From: Thamnocephalis sphaerospora
Lineage: Eukaryota > Zoopagomycota > Zoopagomycetes > Zoopagales > Sigmoideomycetaceae
Direction of reading: 5' to 3'
NCBI GenBank assembly: GCA_003614735.1
Contig: KZ992548.1
Location: forward strand, 1 to 32,410
DNA length: 32,410 nucleotides
Shown here: in pieces, positions 10,320 to 27,016 of the stretch
How positions within the stretch are numbered: position 1 is the stretch's first letter
How the letters are laid out: each line of letters begins with the position of its first letter
Notes under the pieces: generated by a model
Told to the model about the DNA's origin: nothing
What the model saw: the letters and a program-made list of their open reading frames with translations, nothing else
The model's database searches: none
Translations under genes and position numbers: made by a program

Positions 10320-11936
10320 ATGCATTACACCGCTGCCATTTTTCTGCTGATTGCCAGCTGCACTATCGTGACCGTAGACGCTGCTCCCACCAGTGACAGC
10401 ATTGTGCGCCGAACCTTTTTTGGCTCGCGAGGCGGCTCTGCGGCAGACTGCGGCAACTCCATTCCCTTCAAGGGATACCACCGGCCAAGACCAAGACCGT
10501 GCGGATCAAGGCTAGTACCATGCAATCCCAGGCCGGTGCCATGTGGTTCTGGGCCAAAGCCGTGCGAGCCCAAGCCGAACCCGTGCGGGTCTGGGCCAGG
10601 CCCATGCGAGCCTTCTTTGCCTTCCGACCACTGTCAGTACGGCAGCAGCCCTGATGGCAGCTGCCTGGCACCTCCGCAGCCTACGCCTACGCCGGCACCC
10701 GTGCCTGGTGGAGAAGAAACATCCGGCGGAGAGATTCCAACGCCAACTCCTGAGCCACAGCCGACGCCGACACCAACGCCAACACCGCCCAGCAATAGTT
10801 GTCAATACGGCAGCGTTCCAGACGGTGGCTGCTTGCCACCTCCGGCATCTACGCCTGCTCCAGTGCCCGGTGGCGAAGAAACCTCTGGCGGAGAAAACCC
10901 AACGCCGACGCCAGAGCCAGAGCCGACACCGGCACCGGCACCGCCATCAAATAACGGAACAGTCCCCACCACGCCATGCCAGTACGGCAGTAACCCCGAT
11001 GGCAGCTGTTTACCGCCCCCGCAGCCAACGCCTCCATCGGTGCCACAGCCAGCGCCTAGTGGTAGCGAGTCATCTGGCGGAGAGGTTCCAACGCCCACTC
11101 CCGAGCCGACACCGGCGCCGCCGTCAAATAACGGAACGGTACCTACCACGCCATGCCAGTACGGCAATAACTCCGATGGTAGCTGCTTGCCGCCTCCACA
11201 GCCCACACCTGCGCCCACGCCGGAACCGACACCAACTCCTGTGCCTACGCCAGAGCCAACGCCAACCCCCGTGCCCACACCAGAGCCGACTATTCAACCA
11301 ACACCACCGTCCGGTGGCGAGGAGTCCGCTGGTGGTGAGACACCCAGGCCTACTCCAACGCCAGTACCCGAGCCTACGCCAGTAGCGCCGCCAAACAACG
11401 GCACGACACCAAGTGTTCCTTGCAAGCATGGCAGTAACCCTGATGGCAGCTGCCTTCCGCCTTCGGAGCCTACACCAGTGCCAGAACCGGTACCCACGCC
11501 GCAGCCTTCACCCAAGCCATGCGAACCTGGTGAGAGCGGCGATGGTAAGGGACCGTGCAAGGACAAGAAGCCATGCGAGCCGAAAAAGGGAGGCAAAAAG
11601 CACAACGATAAGGACAAGCACAAGGGAAAGGGTCGCTGCAAGGATAATGGACCATGCAAGGACGACGATGACGACGCTGATGATTCCGATGGCGGACACA
11701 AGAGCAAGGGCAAGGACAAGGAGTCTCACGAGCCTAGAAGGGATGATAAGAAGAGGCACGATGGAGGCCATGATGGCGGAAAGCGTCCATGCAAAGACAA
11801 ATCGTGCAAGCCCAAGCCCAAGCCCAAGCCATGCGATACCGACAAGGGTGGCAACAAGAACCCGTGCAAGGACAAAGGTCCGTGTGAATCCAAGCCAAAG
11901 CCATGCGAGATCGGTGAAAGCAAGGGTCCCTGCTAG
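10320..11936 (+). CDS. Secreted Pro/Thr/Glu-rich protein with five Cys modules and a charged Lys/Cys tail
   Basis: 538 aa, intronless. Residues 1-22 are a clear signal peptide ([21 protein letters not shown] followed by APT). Residues about 55-100 carry a PC repeat: PCGS, PCNP, PCEP every 6-8 residues. Then come five modules of the form C-[QK]-[YH]-G-[SN]-x-x-D-G-[SG]-C-L, near residues 104, 160, 219, 278 and 367, separated by Pro-Thr-Glu spacers (PTPTPEP type) and SGGE motifs. From about residue 400 it becomes Lys/Asp/Gly-rich, with repeated PCKDK, PCEP and a run of Asp, ending in GPC. There is no transmembrane segment or obvious GPI signal. I do not recognise a catalytic domain. The likely role is structural or cell-wall/matrix, with disulphides from the regularly spaced Cys. 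The third-base variation between modules shows old duplications under protein-level constraint. Confidence 0.85.
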
Positions 11937-12231: not shown

Positions 12232-12383
12232 TGCGAACAATAGAATAAGCTCGCCATTTGGTTGATTGCGACTGGACCGTTACCATAAGCTGCCATGCCA
12301 AATGTCATCATTGCACTTGAGCTATCGGCTTTGCACGTTTCGATTTCCAGTAGCCATGCCGCCTGCATGTCACTTGGCTTTGT
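12232..12383 (+). repeat. Direct duplication upstream of the 14-mer repeat gene, copy 1
   Basis: This stretch matches 12472-12613 in the same orientation over about 140 bp. Shared landmarks in order: GCGAAnAnTAnAATA, CTCGCCnTTTGGTnGATT, AGCTGCCATGC, AAATGTC, ATTGCACTTG, GCTTTG, TTTnGATTTnnAGTAGCCATGCCG and CTGCA. The copies differ by many substitutions and small indels, so the duplication is old. No coding potential is convincing on either strand. Confidence 0.8.
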
Positions 12384-12471
12384 GCGTGCAAGGGTGTGCT
12401 GGTTTGGCACTAATCCCGCAGCGTCCGTGATGTCTGCTACGCGGCATTTCTGGGTGAGTCTGCAGAACAAC

Positions 12472-12613
12472 AGCGAATAGTAAAATAGACTCGCCGTTTG
12501 GTCGATTATGGCAGGTAAAAGCTGCCATGCTAAATGTCTTGTATTGCACTTGGACTATTAGCTTTGTGCATTTTGATTTTTAGTAGCCATGCCGTCTGCA
12601 CATTGTCTGGATT
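12472..12613 (+). repeat. Direct duplication upstream of the 14-mer repeat gene, copy 2
   Basis: Second copy of the element at 12232-12383, starting 240 bp further on and ending about 160 bp before the ATG of the 14-residue repeat gene. Its position suggests a duplicated promoter segment or the remnant of a duplicated gene end; the sequence alone does not decide. Confidence 0.8.
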
Positions 12614-12770
12614 TTCACGGCCAAGGTCACGTTACGCGCAAACGTGTTAAATAGATGGCTGCCCGACGGCCAAAGTCCGTTGTCATCACTATCTAGCCAT
12701 TGTACTCTGCCACACTACATTCTGTCGCGAAAACAGACTCCACTTGTCACACTGCACTTGTCAAACTACG

Positions 12771-13364
12771 ATGGCTAAAATCACACGTCCTATTGTCCGT
12801 GGTGCGGCCACAATGATCAAAGCCGGTCGCGCTATCGCCCGTGGTGCAGTCGCAATCGCCAAAGCGGGCTGCATCGTCGTTCGCCATGCAGCAGCAGCCG
12901 TGCTCAAGACAGGTTACGCACTTGCTCGCTGCGTACTAGCTGTGGCCAAGGTTGGCTGCGCCATCAGCCTTTGCGCGGTGGCTGCTGTCAAAGTAGGCTA
13001 TGCAGCTGCACTTTGTGCCATGGCTACAGTCAAAGCAGCATGCACCCTTGCCCTGTGCGCCATGACATTGGCCCAGACTACCTGTGTCGTCGTTTGCCAT
13101 TTTGCAGCGACGAAAAAGACCAAGCCTGCAGTTATCCGCAGCAGGATTGCCATTGCTAATGCGATGCGCGCAAGTGTTTGTTGCATGGTGTCCGCGGCCA
13201 AAGTTGGACGCGCTTCTATTACGCTTGTTGAAGCCACGACAAAGACGGGACATGCTATCGTCCTCTGTCCTGTGGCCGTGGTCATGCTGGCCTACACCAT
13301 TGCATTGTGCACCGTGATGACAGCCAATGCAGGATGCAGCGCTCTCATCAGTGCTGCGGCATAA
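12771..13364 (+). CDS. Protein built entirely of fourteen 14-residue Ala/Val/Cys-rich repeats
   Basis: 197 aa, intronless, ATG at 12771. After Met-Ala the whole protein divides into fourteen units of 14 residues (the third has 15, the last 12). A unit reads roughly K-[AVT]-G-x-A-[ILV]-x-[LR]-C-A-[VM]-A-x-[AV]; examples are KAGRAIARGAVAIA, KVGCAISLCAVAAV, KVGYAAALCAMATV and KTGHAIVLCPVAVV. Lys (or Asn/Gln/Met in divergent units) recurs every 14 residues, Gly at the third position, Cys often at the fourth and ninth. There is no signal peptide in the usual sense, although the chain is very hydrophobic. Central units are regular; units 8-10 are more degenerate and more basic (KKTK). I know no family with this exact period. 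If helical, 14 residues give just under four turns, so the Lys would form a slowly turning stripe on an otherwise apolar rod. A membrane-associated, amyloid-like or surface-active role is possible but unproven. Confidence 0.75.
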   Translation: MAKITRPIVRGAATMIKAGRAIARGAVAIAKAGCIVVRHAAAAVLKTGYALARCVLAVAKVGCAISLCAVAAVKVGYAAALCAMATVKAACTLALCAMTLAQTTCVVVCHFAATKKTKPAVIRSRIAIANAMRASVCCMVSAAKVGRASITLVEATTKTGHAIVLCPVAVVMLAYTIALCTVMTANAGCSALISAAA

Positions 13365-13580
13365 GCTGCTCTATCTGCCGTGCCCTGCTGCTACCATATG
13401 ATATAGCTGCTACTCGCAATATTCTGCCAACAGGTTTGTGATTATTGTTGTCAACATCAAACGTTCGTCGACTCACCTGTGCGCTATCATCAGTAGACTC
13501 ATTGGCTTACGCGACACGCGTCAAATCGGCGCGCGTCGTTGGCTTTTATATGCGCGCGAGCACAGCAAGTAGTAAGCGGC

Positions 13581-13590
13581 CGTATATACT
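13581..13590 (+). promoter_or_regulatory. TATA-like element before the tentative small gene at 13642
   Basis: cgtatatact lies about 55 bp before the ATG at 13642; a second AT-rich element (cttttatatg) lies near 13542. Either could serve a small downstream gene. Confidence 0.3.
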
Positions 13591-13641
13591 AGCATATAGG
13601 CACGCGTGTACTGATACATAGTGATTGCCAGCTAGATTTGC

Positions 13642-13915
13642 ATGTCCACGCTACACACAAGGATCTGCAAGGCGTTCAAGCCATATGCAGTCGTCAATGC
13701 AGCGTCCGTTAAGGTGCAATACGCGATACAACTCAAATATAGGTAGGCCATCCCAACAGAAAGCCGTGCACGCTACCATCGCCCTTGCTTACATTGCGCA
13801 CTGTATTTGCAGTAAAAAATGGCGTGGTCATCATCGGTGTGCGATAGTTGTAGGTCAGCAGATGCAATGTAACTCTGGCACCAGCGTCAAGCCACACACA
13901 ACAGCACCATATTAG
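13642..13915 (+). CDS. Tentative small Ala/Val/Cys-rich protein, two exons
   Basis: Proposed exons 13642-13713 and 13760-13915 (GTGCAA donor, AACAG acceptor, 46-nt intron) give 75 aa. The junction joins KPYAVVNAASVK to KAVHATIALAYIAHCIC, which looks like two 14-residue units of the type in the neighbouring repeat protein (Lys followed by Ala/Val/Ile and Cys). The remaining 35 residues are basic and unlike the repeat. This rests on composition, a TATA-like element and acceptable splice sites only; the frame may be chance. Confidence 0.3.
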
Positions 13916-14202
13916 CAGCCGCTGTAACCATTGCTTTCTTTTCCCTTGCTCTTTATATGTTGTACTATCAGTTCCATACTTTTGTACCTTTAGTAACATA
14001 TCATATCAATTGATGAAAATACATCTAGTTATTTACCAAAACATGCTCAGCGTGTCTTGACAATCACTAAAAGCCGCCTCTATGTTCAGTAGCACACTCA
14101 TCTTGAACGCCTTATGGCACATACACAGCAGACATGCAGAGATGGCACTTGCGGCAGCAACGCACATCTACAGACGAGCTACTCGCGGTGTGAAGGCACG
14201 TG
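13916..14202. other. Intergenic, no supported gene
   Basis: An AT-rich stretch near 13970-14040 and short open frames only. I see no gene or signal here that I can support. Confidence 0.4.
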
Positions 14203-15254: not shown

Positions 15255-17409
15255 ATGGCCAAAGTTGGCGGAAATGTTCCGACTGCCGAGGGGCTAGTTG
15301 AAGCAGAAAGGTCCATCCGGAATGCGCACATATCGCTGGACCTGGACATTGCCAACAGACCTGACTCTGGCATTAAAATCATTCGACATACATACTATGC
15401 TGCCGATGGAGCATGCACCACTCTGCCAGATGTCATTGTCGAGGCCGGGAGTACAACAAAGGCTGTGTTCAAGGCTGTAGACAACAAGCATCGGCTCAAG
15501 GGCTGCTTGCTTTACCAAATCGTACGCGCAGATGCTGCACCTTCATCCGCTAACGATCTGTATTTGCTGTTGGCCTGGAGGATCAAACCGGGCGGCAATG
15601 CATACATGATGCTCGATCTGCTGGAAAACAGAAAAGGCGTAATTGTCTGGGATACCAGGCGTTTGGAGAGCCACTACAAGGAGTACATCAGAGAACAATT
15701 ACAGACTACCAAAAGCGCACAGACTCGCACATGGGCAATGGACAATGACAGTGCCTTTACCGTGCGTGTCAACATGAATGACGCGTGCATTGGTAGCATG
15801 AAAGTGGACATTATCAAGGCAGAGAGTCCATTGGATGAAAAAAGGCCGTTTTTCGTAAGCCCTCAAAGGTATACACGCTGCACTGTTTATACGCTGTTCT
15901 CGATGCTAATATACCCTTGCATATCGCAAATAGATGCGATACTATTAGCTGGAGTACAATTGGTACGTGCTTCATCCACTGATTAGCTTTAGGAGTATGC
16001 ACCGCGTAGGCTAACGGCTACACCAACATCCGCATAATGCTAAACAGATGGAACATCTGCGTATAACAACCCGTCAGTCAGCTATCTGTTTGGTAGCAGT
16101 GTCGACATAAGCGTTCATAATAATTGCGACAACCTGCTGCTGTGCAATCCAAGCATTAGTGTATTGAAGGGAAAACACAAGTCTGACAGTCTGAGAGACA
16201 TTACGCCACATGAAGACAGGGTGATCAAGTTAAAGTCGGCATCCATGATTCGTGGACGCACACATGGCTGCATAGTTTATGAATTGGTGGAATTCAGCGG
16301 CCTTGCACCGGTTATTTGGAATCGCCGGACATTTCTTGTCATTGACGTAATCACCGTGCCCAATGCCGCGGAAAAACGCAAGGTTGCCGTTCAACTGTTC
16401 ACCGCTTTGGGCCCAAGCTTTTCGGCTGCAAACGATGGACTACCCGAAAAAGCACACAGAGATGTTTTCTGCCAATATATGACTACACATGGCCGGCCAT
16501 TCACTTACCGCATGGACAAGATGAATCTGAAGCTGGATTTGTCATTCGACCGCGAGAGACATGCAAGACTATATGTTAGACTTTCGCAGGTGTCACGGTG
16601 CCCGCAAGAAGATAAGCCATTGTTCTTTGCAGTCGAAAAAATCTGGTAAGTTGCAACCCTTTTTTCATCGAGCATGCTCGTTGACTCGTTACGCTGGCCA
16701 ACATAGCGCACCCTCGTCGTCTGTTCTTGAAGCCATTCAAAATGCGCTTAGAAATTTGGACAAGCATTTGCATCATCGGCTACGTCTTTGTGAGAACAAG
16801 ACCAATGGACCCAGGGGTGAAAAGAATGGCTTCATTCTGGAGCAGCTTTACCCAGATAAGGAGGAATCATTCAAGGAGTTTCATATTGGCTGCACAAATA
16901 GTCGCCTACGTAGCGGCGAGGCTTACCTGCACGGACTACCTGTACCCAAGGACAAGCAAAGCGATCTGTATATCCACATGATTGAGCCAGTTGCGCATTT
17001 CGATGACGGTTTTGTATGTTTACTTGTGTTGATGCAGAACATGGACGCATCGCTTGTCAATAGCACTAGCGATAGCAGCAAGCCCCCAATTCAGGGCTAC
17101 ACTGCTTTGATACTGTACACACCCAAGCACAAAGGAGAAGACGCGACAGACTTGGTGAAATATCTCCTCACCTACGCCAAGATGCCCCCTAACAGTAGCT
17201 ATGACGCTGGACATTTGATGGACCGTGAAATTCAATTTCCAGGCGAAAAAGCGCACCTATGTGTATACCAGGCTGCTGCACCGCCGCATGTATTGGCGGT
17301 TTCACTGGAAAATTCGCTGGGTCATAATGTAAGCTGCGCGTTAATTGGATTATACAGTGCGGTTGGCTCACCCATTCCGCGACATCGGCTGAAAGGCACT
17401 GCACGCTAA
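15255..17409 (+). CDS. Three-module protein of unknown family, four exons
   Basis: Exons 15255-15868, 15934-15962 (29 nt), 16048-16645 and 16707-17409 keep phase at every junction (GTATAC, GTACGT and GTAAGT donors) and give 647 aa with no signal peptide or membrane segment. It reads as three modules of about 200 residues: roughly 15-210, 215-410 and 415-640. Modules 1 and 2 share an order of motifs: an ISLDLDIANR/VDISVHNN beta strand, a GS or HE turn, KGCLLYQI/HGCIVYEL, a hydrophobic LYLLLAW/FLVIDV strand, and an acidic end LDEKRPFFV/QEDKPLFFA. Module 3 is more diverged. The strand pattern and module length faintly recall the actinoporin-like beta-sandwich superfamily of membrane-binding and lectin-like proteins, but no signature residue makes this firm, so no function is assigned. 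The next gene, 43 bp downstream, encodes one more related module. Confidence 0.7.
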
Positions 17410-17452
17410 GCAAAGTAACCATTTTGCTCACTGGAATTCAAGCAATTACCGC

Positions 17453-18031
17453 ATGTCTAAAGATTCGTATCCTACAGCGCCACCGCCACGCAGTATCCGT
17501 ATTAGTGTGCTCAACGTTCATGCTGGGCTTAAACTGCGTCTGATCGATTACATTGCTAGCGGAGTGCCTGTCAATAACATATCGAGCCAGGCGGTGTCGC
17601 ATGGCAGCGAGTTTGCGGCTTATTTCGAGTTTTCAGCGCAAGATTGTCGCTCCACCGTTCTTCTGCGGTTTGTTTTCGACAACGAAGCCTCCATTGGAAT
17701 GGATGTGCAAATCGACTTGGAATTACCAAGCTTCAGCGAAAACGGAAACAAGGCGCAGCAAACCACGATTATTCGCTACGTCGATAGCAACAATTGCACT
17801 GTAGCTGGGATGAAGCCTCACCGCCTGGATACAGTTTACAACATTGCTCCTGATGGAAGCGACGATAATTCTGATCAGCCAGAAATCTGCACGAATTGTA
17901 GCTTGATGGCACGCCAAGCACAATCACATATGCCCACCATTCCAGCGTATGCTGTGGCTATCCGTCATGGCTGTCGTAGCAATAGCTTGCTCAACTTTGA
18001 CGCATGCGTCACTATTGCTGAGAGCGCATAA
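17453..18031 (+). CDS. Single-module relative of the upstream three-module protein
   Basis: 192 aa, intronless, ATG at 17453, only 43 bp after the stop of the three-module gene. The first 110 residues follow the same plan as its modules: SIRISVLNVHAG, then SGVPVN, HGSEFAAYF, STVLLRFVF and GMDVQIDLELP. The C-terminal 60 residues are Cys-richer (ICTNCSLM, IRHGCRSNS) and have no counterpart upstream. The short gap leaves open whether it is a separate gene or a fourth module of the same transcript joined by a splice that skips the TAA; no strong donor before the stop supports a fusion. No signal peptide. Function unknown. Confidence 0.6.
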   Translation: MSKDSYPTAPPPRSIRISVLNVHAGLKLRLIDYIASGVPVNNISSQAVSHGSEFAAYFEFSAQDCRSTVLLRFVFDNEASIGMDVQIDLELPSFSENGNKAQQTTIIRYVDSNNCTVAGMKPHRLDTVYNIAPDGSDDNSDQPEICTNCSLMARQAQSHMPTIPAYAVAIRHGCRSNSLLNFDACVTIAESA

Positions 18032-18436: not shown

Positions 18437-18589
18437 AACATTGCCCGCTGAGTAGGGGTGATTCGAGCGGAAAGATGTTTGTCAGCACTCATTCTATCCA
18501 TCACAAGCTGGACGGCACCAAGTGTTAGACATGCTCTAAAAGAATCGGCGTACAAAAGGCGAGTATCGACTTGTCCGTTAGCCAGCATC

Positions 18590-20400
18590 ATGCCTCAGCC
18601 CTGCTGGCACCGCATTCAATGTTCTAGTGCTGCAGAGCAGGGTGCCAGACGGTACGTAGCACCGTTAATACACTGTACTCTGCGTGTATGCTATTTACAC
18701 AATCCTAGAGCTTTTTCTATGCGCAAGATTGAATGTCTGCTGCTGCATATCGTTGAGCATATAGCATTGTTGACAGCGCCGCAGACATATGCGCCTGTGT
18801 CAGCAGCACAAGACAGCATATGGCGTCAAGTGAAGCCAACGCAAAGAGACCCGCTCCGCCTTGGTGAGTCGATTGCACACGCATGGTGCCGTTGTATGCT
18901 CTGTGCTGAGCACGTAAGGCGCTCGCTAGCCAAGCATTTGAGGGTACTGGAAATATGCTATCGTGTGCTTTCTGATAGCGTAGTGATGACCAAAAGGTAC
19001 GGGCAAAGCACTGGCGGTAACGCGCTCCGACTGCTACACGCTAATGGTACAAAGGGAGATTTACTATCAGGATGTAGGACTGTTTAGCTCGCAGTCTAAT
19101 AGCAATACTGTACGTGGCAAGTGCGCTCATCTGTCAGCGTACTTACGCGCCACTACTGCTGCAGATCATCGAAGGCCTAGCAAACATGCTGCACGTTCCA
19201 CGCGCCGCCCTAAACATAGTGAGCCACTACGAGTGTGCATTGCAGTGGTCTGCAGCGATTGATACGTGCTGTTTATCAGGTGGCCAGTGCTACTGGGCTT
19301 GTAGCCGGCACAATAGCGTTCACACCGACAGTCAATTGCACTAGCACTGCATCGCACCACGCGCACCAGCATGCGGCGTCAGCCCAGCAGGGCGTCCTCA
19401 TTCCAGATCTTGCATTTGTAAATGATATCCTTTGGCGGTGTGTGTGCGGCATTTTCTATGCGCAATGCTTGGGAGTATCCTATCTTGAACTGCACAGCTG
19501 CATGTCAAAGCGGATTGTATGCTGATTGTGGAAAAGGAGGCAGGTGTCGCTGTACTGTCAGTATCAAGTTCGTCTTGCATATTATGCGCTGATACGGCGT
19601 GTGCCACTTTAGGCCTTTTTCAAGCAGCTGCTTTCGTATGGGCTCCTAGAGCGAATGCCGAATTTACTGGTTGTAACGGCAAGTCTGTCGCTGCATTCTT
19701 TGCCGCGTAGTATAGGCTGACATTTGACACGTGCGTTCTCAGGGAAAGGGCTATCCGGTAGGACGCTAGACACTGTCAGCTGTCAGCTGCGCTAACCGTA
19801 TACCTTTAGGACATCTCCACTCGCAAACTAGTTCACAAGCTTTCCTCTCACGCCATCAGCTCAGACACAAATTGGCCTCTCAGGTAATGCAGCGGAGCTG
19901 TGTCTTGATTGCAGCAGATTGCCAACATGCACGCATGGCAGAGCGTACTGTCTCGTAGATTGGGACCCATACGGTACGCGTGCGATCGCAGAGTGGCATT
20001 ACCGGTAGTGGATCACGAGCACACAGCATAGGCATGGACATTGCTGCCATGTACAAGCACGGTGCTCGGGTGAGTAAGCATATCGCCATCTATTGGAGCT
20101 GATGACTATGTCGTTGACATTTGCAAAGAACACTGAAGAGCTAGCATGCCCCTCGCTGCAGCTGGTGTGCCTTCCAAAGCTGCAGAAAACACATGGGTGC
20201 GTGCATCGCTAAATGCCAATATACCAGCCCATACTCATGTCCTACGTCATGGTGGTCAACGGAAAAGTAGCATGTATCAGCTGCTCACGGCGCGCGATCG
20301 CACAAAAGCCATGCAGCTACTTCAAAGCCGGCGTCTGGGCGAGGGCTGTGCTATTAGGCAAGACGTGTGCGACTGCGCTTGTCTGATGCTGGCAAAGTGA
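18590..20400 (+). CDS. SPO11: SPO11 meiotic DNA double-strand-break transesterase, 14 exons
   Basis: SPO11 (topoisomerase VI A-type) makes the meiotic breaks that start recombination. Exons: 18590-18651, 18709-18863, 18930-18996, 19055-19109, 19165-19218, 19280-19439, 19511-19539, 19613-19678, 19743-19757, 19810-19883, 19942-19973, 20032-20069, 20129-20196, 20271-20400; 334 aa, all phases consistent. Landmarks: MRKIECLLLHIVEHI; LAKHLRVLEICYRVLSDS; VVMTKREIYYQDVGLFSSQ, where the second Tyr (about residue 99) is the catalytic one; NMLHVPRAALNIVASATGLVAG; GVLIPDLAFVND; LIVEKE (Toprim Glu); VVTGKGYPDISTR; YCLVDWDPYGMDIAAMYKHGAR (metal-binding Asp pair); LACPSLQ; LLTARDRTKAMQLL. Introns 19540-19612 (GCAGGT) and 19679-19742 (GCAAGT) are GC-AG, and GKGYP occupies a 15-nt exon. 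The first exon and the last junction are least certain; translation could start at 18719. Confidence 0.9.
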
Positions 20401-24664: not shown

Positions 24665-26406
24665 ATGAAGTATCTGTCGGCCACCGTGCTGCTATGCGCG
24701 CTCCTGGCGCCGTCGGCAGAGTGCACCATACCTGTCAAATACTACGAGGGTCTGCCCGACCTAACCAAGGTCGAAAGCAATACGTGGATAACGAAAGTCA
24801 AGCAGCTGTTTGCCAAGGAGAAACTTTTGGGCGATGTTGTGCTTGGATACATGCAGCGTTGTGCGACGCAAGACGAGGCGATCGATGCGATGTCGGTAAT
24901 GCTCGGCAAAGGAATTGCACTGGATGCGCTCCCGTCGTCCAACCCGATGAGCGCAGAGCTTGTGCACTCGGTGTGCTCTGGAAAAACCATGCAAACATGC
25001 CAGATCACAGTACAGCGCGAGATATGGGACAAACTTGCCAAGATTCGCATCAACGAAGCACCACGGCAGCCAAGGGATGACTTTTGGGGCATGGCGCTGG
25101 AGTACGGCTACGATGCACCGCCAATTGTCGCGCACCATGACATACGCTTCATTCCCGGCCATTTGCTGGGCCGGAAAGAGGACGCTGTAGGTGCGGCCGA
25201 CATGAAGACAACCGCAAAGGGTCTCCAGTATCTGGTTGGCGATGATGGCGGAGCACGACCCCTCAAAGACCCTATCTTCCACGCCCGCTGCTGGGGCAGG
25301 ACGGATGCAGGCAGCACTCCGATGGCGGCGCCGAAATACGAAGATCCGGAACACAACACGTTTAGGGATGCCGAGGCCCTGAAGAACCGCCGTATTGTAG
25401 CGGTGGGCGATCTCCATGGCGATTTGGAGGCCACACTTGATGTGCTGTACATGGCCGGCGTCGTCGACTCCAACGGAGAGTGGGCTGGTGGCAACAATAC
25501 CATCCTTGTCCAAACGGTAGGTAGTAGCGCGGCAAACGGGCCTGATTACCGCGTTGCCAGTATCTGACCTGCATCTAGGGCGACATTCTGGATCGCGGCC
25601 CTGATACCGTTCCGTTGCTGGAGCTGTTCCCGCGACTGGCCAAGGAGGCAAATAAGGTTGGCGGCCGAGTAAGTACATGCGATGGCCAGTCTGCCTGCTC
25701 TATCGTGTCTTTAACGCGCATGCCTCAGGTTATTCAAATCTTAGGAAACCACGAACTTATGAATCTTGCCGGCGACTATCGCTACGTTAATCCAGCAGAC
25801 AAGGGATTCGCTGGCCCTATGTCGCGCTACCTTGCATTCAGCCAGCACGGCCGGTTTGGGCAGCGGCTTCTCGACCTGCCTTTGGTGCATCAGATCGGCG
25901 ATACGGTGTTTGCGCACGGCGGCATCACGCCAGAGTGGGCGCGAAAGAACATCCACACGGTCAACACGTTTGCGGCGAAAAAGCTGCGCGAACTCACTTC
26001 TGTCGTGAATCCCGCCAAGTACTCGGATGTGCCGGTACTTGGTCTCGAGGGCCCGGCATGGTACCGCGGCTACGCGCTAGGCAACGAGCGTGTTGTTTGC
26101 GCCGCCCTGAAGCGGGCACTGGACATTATGGGCGTCAAGCAAATGGTCACCGGCCATACGCTGCAGAACAAAGGCCAGGTCCTTACGCGGTGTGACGGTC
26201 GTCTGTTCGTCATCGACGTCGGTATCTCGCGCGCCTACAAGGGCGCTCAGGCCGCAATAGACATCAGTCCGAACGGCATGGTGCGTGCCATCTATCCATT
26301 CGGCACGTTCACCCTGAAGAGTGCAGAGCCGTCCAGACGTAATTCGGGCTCCACCGCTTCTTCCTCGGCACCCTCGTTCAAGTCCAGAGTTGCCTTGCAC
26401 CTGTGA
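24665..26406 (+). CDS. Secreted calcineurin-like metallophosphatase (Shewanella-like type), three exons
   Basis: Exons 24665-25516, 25579-25668 and 25729-26406 give 539 aa. Residues 1-20 (MKYLSATVLLCALLAPSAEC) are a signal peptide, so the enzyme is secreted or enters the secretory pathway. Residues 21-240 form an N-terminal region without a motif I know, with four Cys. The phosphatase core has all metal-binding motifs in order: GDLHGDLEAT (about 248), GDILDRGPD (285), GNHE (320), VFAHGG (about 374) and VTGHT (about 454). The pattern GDLHGD...GDILDRGPD...LGNHE with RYLAFSQHGRFGQRLL resembles the Shewanella-like PPP phosphatases found in fungi and plants, which may act on phosphotyrosine or phosphothreonine. 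A Ser-rich tail ends the protein. The exon 2 junctions fall within the active-site motif region but keep frame exactly. Confidence 0.9.
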
Positions 26407-27016
26407 AGAACGCCATCACGCCCGTAACGTATGCGTAATGCAGTACCGCTTGTCATTTTTGGCCTATTATCTCATCGAATGCCCATGCATCTGCGCTTGT
26501 GTTTTGTGTTGGTACCGCCGGCGCAGCTCTATAATATAGGAAATAGCTATCCGTCGTTGCATGCTACTGCTGCTTCAATCTATAGCTCACTCTCGCTCAA
26601 TATGCCCGTTGCCCATCTAGATGGCCATGTGTGCGCATACCACAGCAGTGTCCGTCTCATGTACCACGCATAGAAAGAACGGAGCTCACCGCTTCCTGCC
26701 GACGCTGCCAGCCGGTTTGAAGCAATGCAAACTTGTGTAGCTACCATTCCTTACGCTATCGTGACCTTTGCAACACGGGGGTGCCCAACACACACCACCG
26801 TACTGCAGTATGAGGCCACAATAATGACGCTGCATTATAAATGCAAGATACTGTCTCCATCGAACCCCCCTGAACTATCTATGCATGTACAAGGCCGCAG
26901 TATCAGTGATGGTGCCGTATAGTGCGCTGGCAACGCCGCGAGGCACGCGATTGTGCTGTTCTTCTAGGACACGCATCCGACAGCCCCCCCCTGGATCTTT
27001 GCACGCACCCCCTCTG
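26407..27016. other. Intergenic, no supported gene
   Basis: About 0.6 kb with only short open frames. Two C-runs (near 26865-26870 and 26984-26991) are the only compositional oddities; they lie upstream of the second F-box gene. Confidence 0.4.

Follow-up and report, generated by a model that had tools for sequence, protein, structure and literature searches.

A tandem array of diverged 14-residue units in Thamnocephalis sphaerospora: a likely coding, orphan repeat frame and a putative membrane-associated helical protein

Introduction

What does a reading frame assembled almost wholly from tandem 14-residue units represent: a gene maintained by selection, or a decayed minisatellite that happens to be open? 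The question is raised by a locus in the window, by which is meant the whole stretch of DNA analysed here, 32,410 nucleotides of Thamnocephalis sphaerospora (assembly GCA_003614735.1, contig KZ992548.1, positions 1 to 32,410 of the forward strand). If the gene is real, it would have grown in its entirety from one single 14-residue unit and been maintained by selection, and no relative of it can be detected; it would thus offer a compact case of orphan-gene origin by tandem duplication. It would also allow one to see, in a natural protein, how a helix is tuned between resting on a membrane and crossing it by a single charged residue in every 14. The unit is unmatched in the Pfam, NCBIfam and PHROGs profile libraries.

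Extent, period and register of the array

The frame encodes 197 amino acids, contains no internal stop and is composed of Met-Ala, 13 units of 14 residues, a final unit of 12 residues and one inserted Leu (Table 1). Residues separated by 14 positions score on average 1.07 on the BLOSUM62 scale, compared with −0.25 ± 0.14 for shuffled sequences, whose maximum is 0.34: none of 5000 shuffles attains the observed value, and the 14-residue period that had been proposed from inspection is significant. Lags 28 and 42 are likewise elevated. In the window, 94 frames running from stop to stop reach 100 amino acids; ranked by the z score of their best lag, the repeat frame comes second (8.8, at lag 14), after the frame of the upstream Pro-rich gene (10.1), and two further frames that overlap it on this DNA likewise peak at lag 14, with z scores of 7.4 and 5.1. 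With the default threshold, Tandem Repeats Finder did not list the array.

Table 1. Features of the repeat frame and of its predicted product
Feature	Coordinates	Strand	Basis
Whole repeat frame, 197 amino acids plus stop, 14-residue repeats	12771..13364	+	Frame, lag score, unit profiles
Units 1–3, 42 bp each	12777..12902	+	Unit alignment and unit profile scores
Lone inserted codon, Leu45; sole register slip, after unit 3	12903..12905	+	Lag analysis and register
Units 4–7, well conserved (as are units 2, 3 and 12)	12906..13073	+	10.0–19.4 bits
Units 8–11, most diverged block	13074..13241	+	−0.4 to 4.2 bits
Units 12–14; start Lys of unit 13 replaced by Met, unit 14 shortened to 12 residues	13242..13361	+	Unit alignment
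Residues 1–39, strongly amphipathic, cationic, helix-like; 'surface' class	12771..12887	+	Hydrophobic moment 0.52–0.64, windows starting at 1, 8, 15 and 22
Residues 163–183, transmembrane-like, IVLCPVAVVMLAYTIALCTVM	13257..13319	+	−2.1 on an approximate scale; Kyte-Doolittle up to 2.5

The unit consensus is KAGCAIVRCAVATA (K-A-G-C-A-I-V-R-C-A-V-A-T-A). Lys opens 10 of the 14 units, Gly occupies position 3 in eight, and Cys is found at positions 4 and 9 in five and seven, respectively, much as the original prediction had described; Ala is present at position 10 in seven units, at position 5 in eight and at position 12 in ten. Scored against a profile built from the 13 remaining units, every unit exceeds its own shuffled letters (P 0.005 or less), and each prefers the present register over all rotations. 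The leave-one-out scores are clear for units 2–7 and 12 (10 to 19 bits) and weak for units 1, 8–11, 13 and 14 (−0.4 to 4.2 bits). The proposal that all residues after Met-Ala obey the period with one slip thus holds for the register and for the single slip, the extra Leu, but is too generous towards the last unit, which is only 12 residues long, and towards the 7 of 14 units that are weak.

Two possible additions to the array were rejected. The segment 12651–12770 is open and in frame on the forward strand, lacks an in-frame ATG and contains no detectable unit. Look-alikes picked out by eye around 13.65 kb and at 14.1–14.4 kb gave an E value of 1.9 or worse with a unit hidden Markov model in the former case and were not listed at E up to 10 in the latter.

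Ancestry of the units and coding status

DNA identity between units is about 45–46% (46% at lag 42), a value that marks them as old, in line with the age originally claimed. Identity at third codon positions amounts to 0.337, compared with 0.296 for a synonymous-codon shuffle in which 1 of 500 replicates reaches the observed figure; the units therefore share a common DNA ancestry and are not the outcome of convergence alone. Above the level expected from base composition, the homology kept between units is 0.24 at the first codon position, 0.34 at the second and 0.09 at the third, and this concentration in the first two positions fits an old tandem duplication selected for the protein. Neutral decay from the consensus along a star tree yielded the observed asymmetry in none of 6000 simulations, 3000 for each of two rates, and such decay would be expected to leave about four stops where none is found (P 0.012–0.015). 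None of 2000 simulations along a duplication tree reached the asymmetry either, but their identity of 0.31 departs from the observed 0.45, which makes this run a poor control. From the codon asymmetry between units inside one gene we infer selection on the reading frame.

The synonymous codon usage of the frame scores 0.040, which is 4.3 SD above a background-codon version of the protein (−0.097 ± 0.032) and below a version with the neighbours' usage (0.088 ± 0.028). This is a weak test, because higher values are obtained for a reverse frame (0.142) and for the +2 frame (0.083) on this stretch and because the training frames were picked only for being stop-free (11 candidate pieces, two of which contained a stop and were dropped). 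Neither AATAAA nor ATTAAA occurs in 13365–14000, an absence that says little since AATAAA is encountered just five times on the forward strand of the window. The frame is open without the need for any intron, so that the intronless structure put forward earlier stands as a prediction from the sequence. The repeat frame is considered likely to be coding.

Composition and helical character

The predicted protein contains 53 Ala, 25 Val, 14 Cys, 12 Lys, 10 Arg, one Glu and no Asp; the 22 basic residues face a single acidic one, the pI is 10.0 and the GRAVY index 1.12. The maximum of the mean hydrophobic moment lies at 102 degrees, equivalent to 3.5 residues per turn, and none of 300 shuffles reaches the alpha band, while the beta-type hydrophobicity signal shows no excess (0.185 versus 0.191 for shuffles). 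AlphaFold2 run on the single sequence returns helix and no strand, with low confidence (best-model mean pLDDT 56.8 for the whole protein and 60.3 for residues 1–100). An alpha-helical protein is thus supported by the periodicity, the fold itself being predicted.

The basic residues are largely arranged on one heptad phase, namely at residues 3, 10, 17, 24, 31 and 38 and, after the slip, at 46, 53, 60, 74 and 88, with residues 6 and 20 off phase; Lys/Arg power is observed at periods 7 and 3.5. Within residues 1–44 six of the eight Lys/Arg share this phase (P 0.0002). Past residue 114 it is kept by only four of nine, so that the stripe weakens where the units are diverged. The first 60 residues hold 11 Lys/Arg and no acidic residue, with a hydrophobic moment of up to 0.64. 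Basic residues at positions 3, 6, 10, 17 and 20 are unlike a signal peptide, and none is evident by eye. When 26 windows of 18 residues are sorted by scales and class boundaries that are approximate, 19 are 'globular', four, all within residues 1–39, are 'surface' and three are transmembrane. The best transmembrane candidate, residues 163–183, straddles the border between units 12 and 13, where Met stands for Lys; the next best, residues 55–75, is borderline at −0.2 on the same approximate scale. The 14 Cys are spaced by 20, 9, 5, 14, 9, 5, 9, 4, 28, 1, 28, 14 and 9 residues. Only one adjacent Lys/Arg pair is present in the 197 residues, at 115–116, on the border between units 8 and 9 and thus at one of 13 borders.

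These properties bear on the suggestions made about the nature of the product. With a putative apolar Lys-striped rod the striping and the alpha-helical moment are in agreement; the charge is not conferred by Lys alone, Lys or Arg recurring roughly every seven residues in the first units. Membrane insertion agrees with the hydrophobic moment as well as with the transmembrane-like stretch near the C terminus and is to be regarded as putative. A surface-active coat is unsupported: no signal peptide is seen by eye and the Cys spacing differs from the hydrophobin order.

Search for relatives

Profile searches with the repeat protein returned no match above the curated cut-offs in Pfam (best E 4.9) and NCBIfam (best E 5.2), none at E up to 10 in PHROGs and no relative among PDB sequences. 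In a collection of 5.8 billion proteins searched at E up to 10, no relative was found among 1746 candidates with the real protein as the query, nor among the 7994 candidates with the most shared words when a consensus array was used instead. Seven pattern matches in viral contigs and 115 in prokaryote genomes gave no confirmed relative. The genome of origin (14.46 Mb, 594 contigs) was queried with the whole protein, the consensus array and the second half; among the best-scored candidates, which alone were scored, the frame itself was the sole match. A description of this unit was not found among the open-licence PMC papers in the matches listed, which is not proof of absence.

The view that the array belongs to no known repeat family is consistent with this lack of matches in Pfam, NCBIfam, PHROGs, PDB sequences and the 5.8 billion proteins, and the frame may represent a new repeat family, since no relative was found. 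The reach of the search can be gauged from simulated relatives: at 25% identity 37 of 40 score at E 0.001 or less, although the simulated changes are conservative and flatter this scoring step. Five-residue words in common number on average 7 at 50% identity and 2.5 at 40%. As the word filter finds so few of them, many relatives below about 50% identity would be missed by the protein search, and the absence of matches bears on close relatives only.

Comparison with known repeat proteins

Several known systems share individual traits with the repeat protein. The 11-mers of alpha-synuclein and apolipoproteins form amphipathic helices in tandem, bind lipid and carry a balanced or acidic charge; they differ in both period and charge, and neither Pfam nor the 5.8-billion-protein search revealed a sequence match. 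Synthetic lung-surfactant mimics of the KL4 type are hydrophobic helices of about 21 residues with regular Lys at a five-residue period, and are thus alike in the spaced Lys on a hydrophobic helix and unlike in being synthetic and in repeating every five residues. Hydrophobins are characterized by eight Cys in the order C-CC-C-C-CC-C, and an assignment to this class was rejected, as the repeat protein contains 14 Cys with other spacing. Orphan repeat proteins are common among fungi generally, and the present product is rated an orphan, helical and built of tandem repeats, whose unit is new.

Perilipin 4 is described in two papers (PMC5889406, PMC8064757) as long and highly repetitive, a short helical unit recurring along an amphipathic helix that faces lipid. 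The repeat protein resembles it in being a long repetitive array of predicted amphipathic helix, whose alpha periodicity is strongest in residues 1–39. However, perilipin 4 is built from 11-mers, whereas here the lag score is 1.07 at 14, −0.19 at 11 and −0.13 at 33; because the 11-residue period fails, the protein is not assigned to perilipin-like helices. It is in addition far more hydrophobic, nearly all-cationic and rich in Cys (14), has a likely transmembrane end and lacks a Pfam match. Tandem 14-amino-acid repeats with a predicted alpha-helix and a potential transmembrane domain are reported (PMC6684095) for HR4, a member of the RPW8 family of Arabidopsis. The likeness extends to unit length, tandem arrangement and helical prediction. 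The HR4 unit as given there, IQV[H/D]QW[T/I]DIKEMKA, has no pattern evident by eye in common with the consensus of the present array, and in that account its repeats lie C-terminal to a coiled-coil domain, whereas the orphan protein consists wholly of repeats and contains no Pfam domain.

Proposed explanation and alternatives

The explanation that we favour, and to which a little less than an even chance is accorded, is a real, single-copy, lineage-restricted gene derived from an old 42-bp tandem duplication, with selection acting on the 14-residue pattern, and encoding a cationic membrane-associated helical repeat protein. The computation shows the old tandem duplication and the codon-position asymmetry, and the encoded pattern would since have been kept by selection, a reading drawn from that asymmetry. 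As 14 residues correspond to four turns of 3.5, Lys1, joined by Arg8 in the N-terminal units, would fall on a single cationic stripe flanked by Arg4, and Ile, Val, Ala and Cys would surround the remainder of the helix. The cationic N-terminal units might rest on an anionic membrane surface, their Lys and Arg reaching the lipid headgroups, while the more hydrophobic units 5–8 and, above all, units 12–13, in which Lys is missing, might sink into the bilayer or span it as an anchor; the membrane-crossing stretch would be due to unit 13 having lost its stripe Lys. Small residues at heptad spacing (Gly3/Ala10 and Ala5/Ala12) could permit tight helix packing, and the protein would be a scaffold or coat embedded in the membrane rather than an enzyme. 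Gly3 in 8 of 14 units argues against a long unbroken helix. Also against the favoured explanation stand the weakening of the Lys/Arg stripe, the 19 of 26 windows that class as 'globular', the low confidence of the AlphaFold2 models, the two other frames with higher codon-usage scores and the mismatch in identity of the duplication-tree run. A bolder and more doubtful proposition is that the protein is the founding member of a new repeat family, confined to one zoopagalean lineage, in which a 42-bp unit gave rise to a two-heptad, Lys/Arg-striped hydrophobic helix array grading from an N-terminal surface helix to a C-terminal crossing anchor by loss of single lysines.

The main rival is a mitochondrial membrane protein, whose basic amphipathic N terminus would be a presequence and whose hydrophobic units would form inner-membrane helices. 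The wholly basic charge and high moment of the first 60 residues and the transmembrane-like residues 163–183 agree with it, yet it is considered unlikely: the presequence-like stretch consists of repeat units and for that reason may be accidental, and Lys at the start of 10 of 14 units would make crossing of the bilayer costly. Still less probable is a soluble helical rod, solenoid or coiled coil with the Ile/Val/Cys face as its core. Fourteen residues equal two heptads, the Lys/Arg spacing and power at periods 7 and 3.5 point the same way and the low-confidence AlphaFold2 models are helical; however, a GRAVY index of 1.12 with a single acidic residue is atypical of soluble coiled coils, and Gly is present in 8 of 14 units.

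Codon-position asymmetry not seen in any of the 6000 star-tree decays, together with the missing stops, renders it very improbable that the locus is a non-gene, a decayed 42-bp minisatellite open by chance, despite the lack of an orthologue or domain in the databases searched, the equal or higher codon usage of other frames and, with little weight, the missing AATAAA and ATTAAA downstream. A beta-solenoid forming a surface-active or ice-binding type of coat, in which each unit would supply a 14-residue strand-turn with KxG turns, is marginally less credible again. Some ice-binding beta-solenoids do contain short tandem units that carry Cys and are about as long as those here, and it is this resemblance that recommends the idea; the beta signal does not exceed that of shuffles, no strand appears in either model and no signal peptide is seen by eye. 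A Kex2-processed precursor giving rise to peptides is scarcely credible: such precursors are reported to be widespread in fungi (PMC7329392), whereas here the sole Lys/Arg pair leaves 12 other unit borders without one, and again a signal peptide is not apparent by eye.

Genomic neighbourhood

Upstream of the array, a forward-strand frame at 10320–11936 has a start that looks by eye like a signal peptide, followed by a repetitive protein rich in Pro/Thr and in Lys/Asp/Cys, with no Pfam match. An 84-nt direct duplication (12310–12393 and 12543–12626, 73% identical, 233 nt apart) is located just upstream of the repeat frame; a search of the genome with 12240–12640 gave only the self match at E up to 0.01.

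Downstream, an intron-split gene or gene pair on the forward strand at 15255–18031 begins with MAKVGGNVPTAEG, and three pieces of it that were scanned had no Pfam match. It is followed at 18480–20400, on the same strand, by a SPO11-like meiotic recombination gene of several exons, recognized from the pieces VQREIYYQDVGLF, IIEGLANMLHVPRAALNIV and CLVDWDPYG, which we take to resemble Spo11/Topo VI-A motifs; its Pfam match to TP6A_N (E 0.026) is below the cut-off. Several Zoopagomycota have been sequenced as uncultured mycoparasites (PMC6784888). One neighbouring gene provisionally places the window in a fungus of the Zoopagales, a spliced, by eye secreted-looking metallophosphatase on the forward strand at 24665–26410: its top match is from Thamnocephalis sphaerospora, with 59% identity over 67% of the query, and Syncephalis figures among the best eleven.
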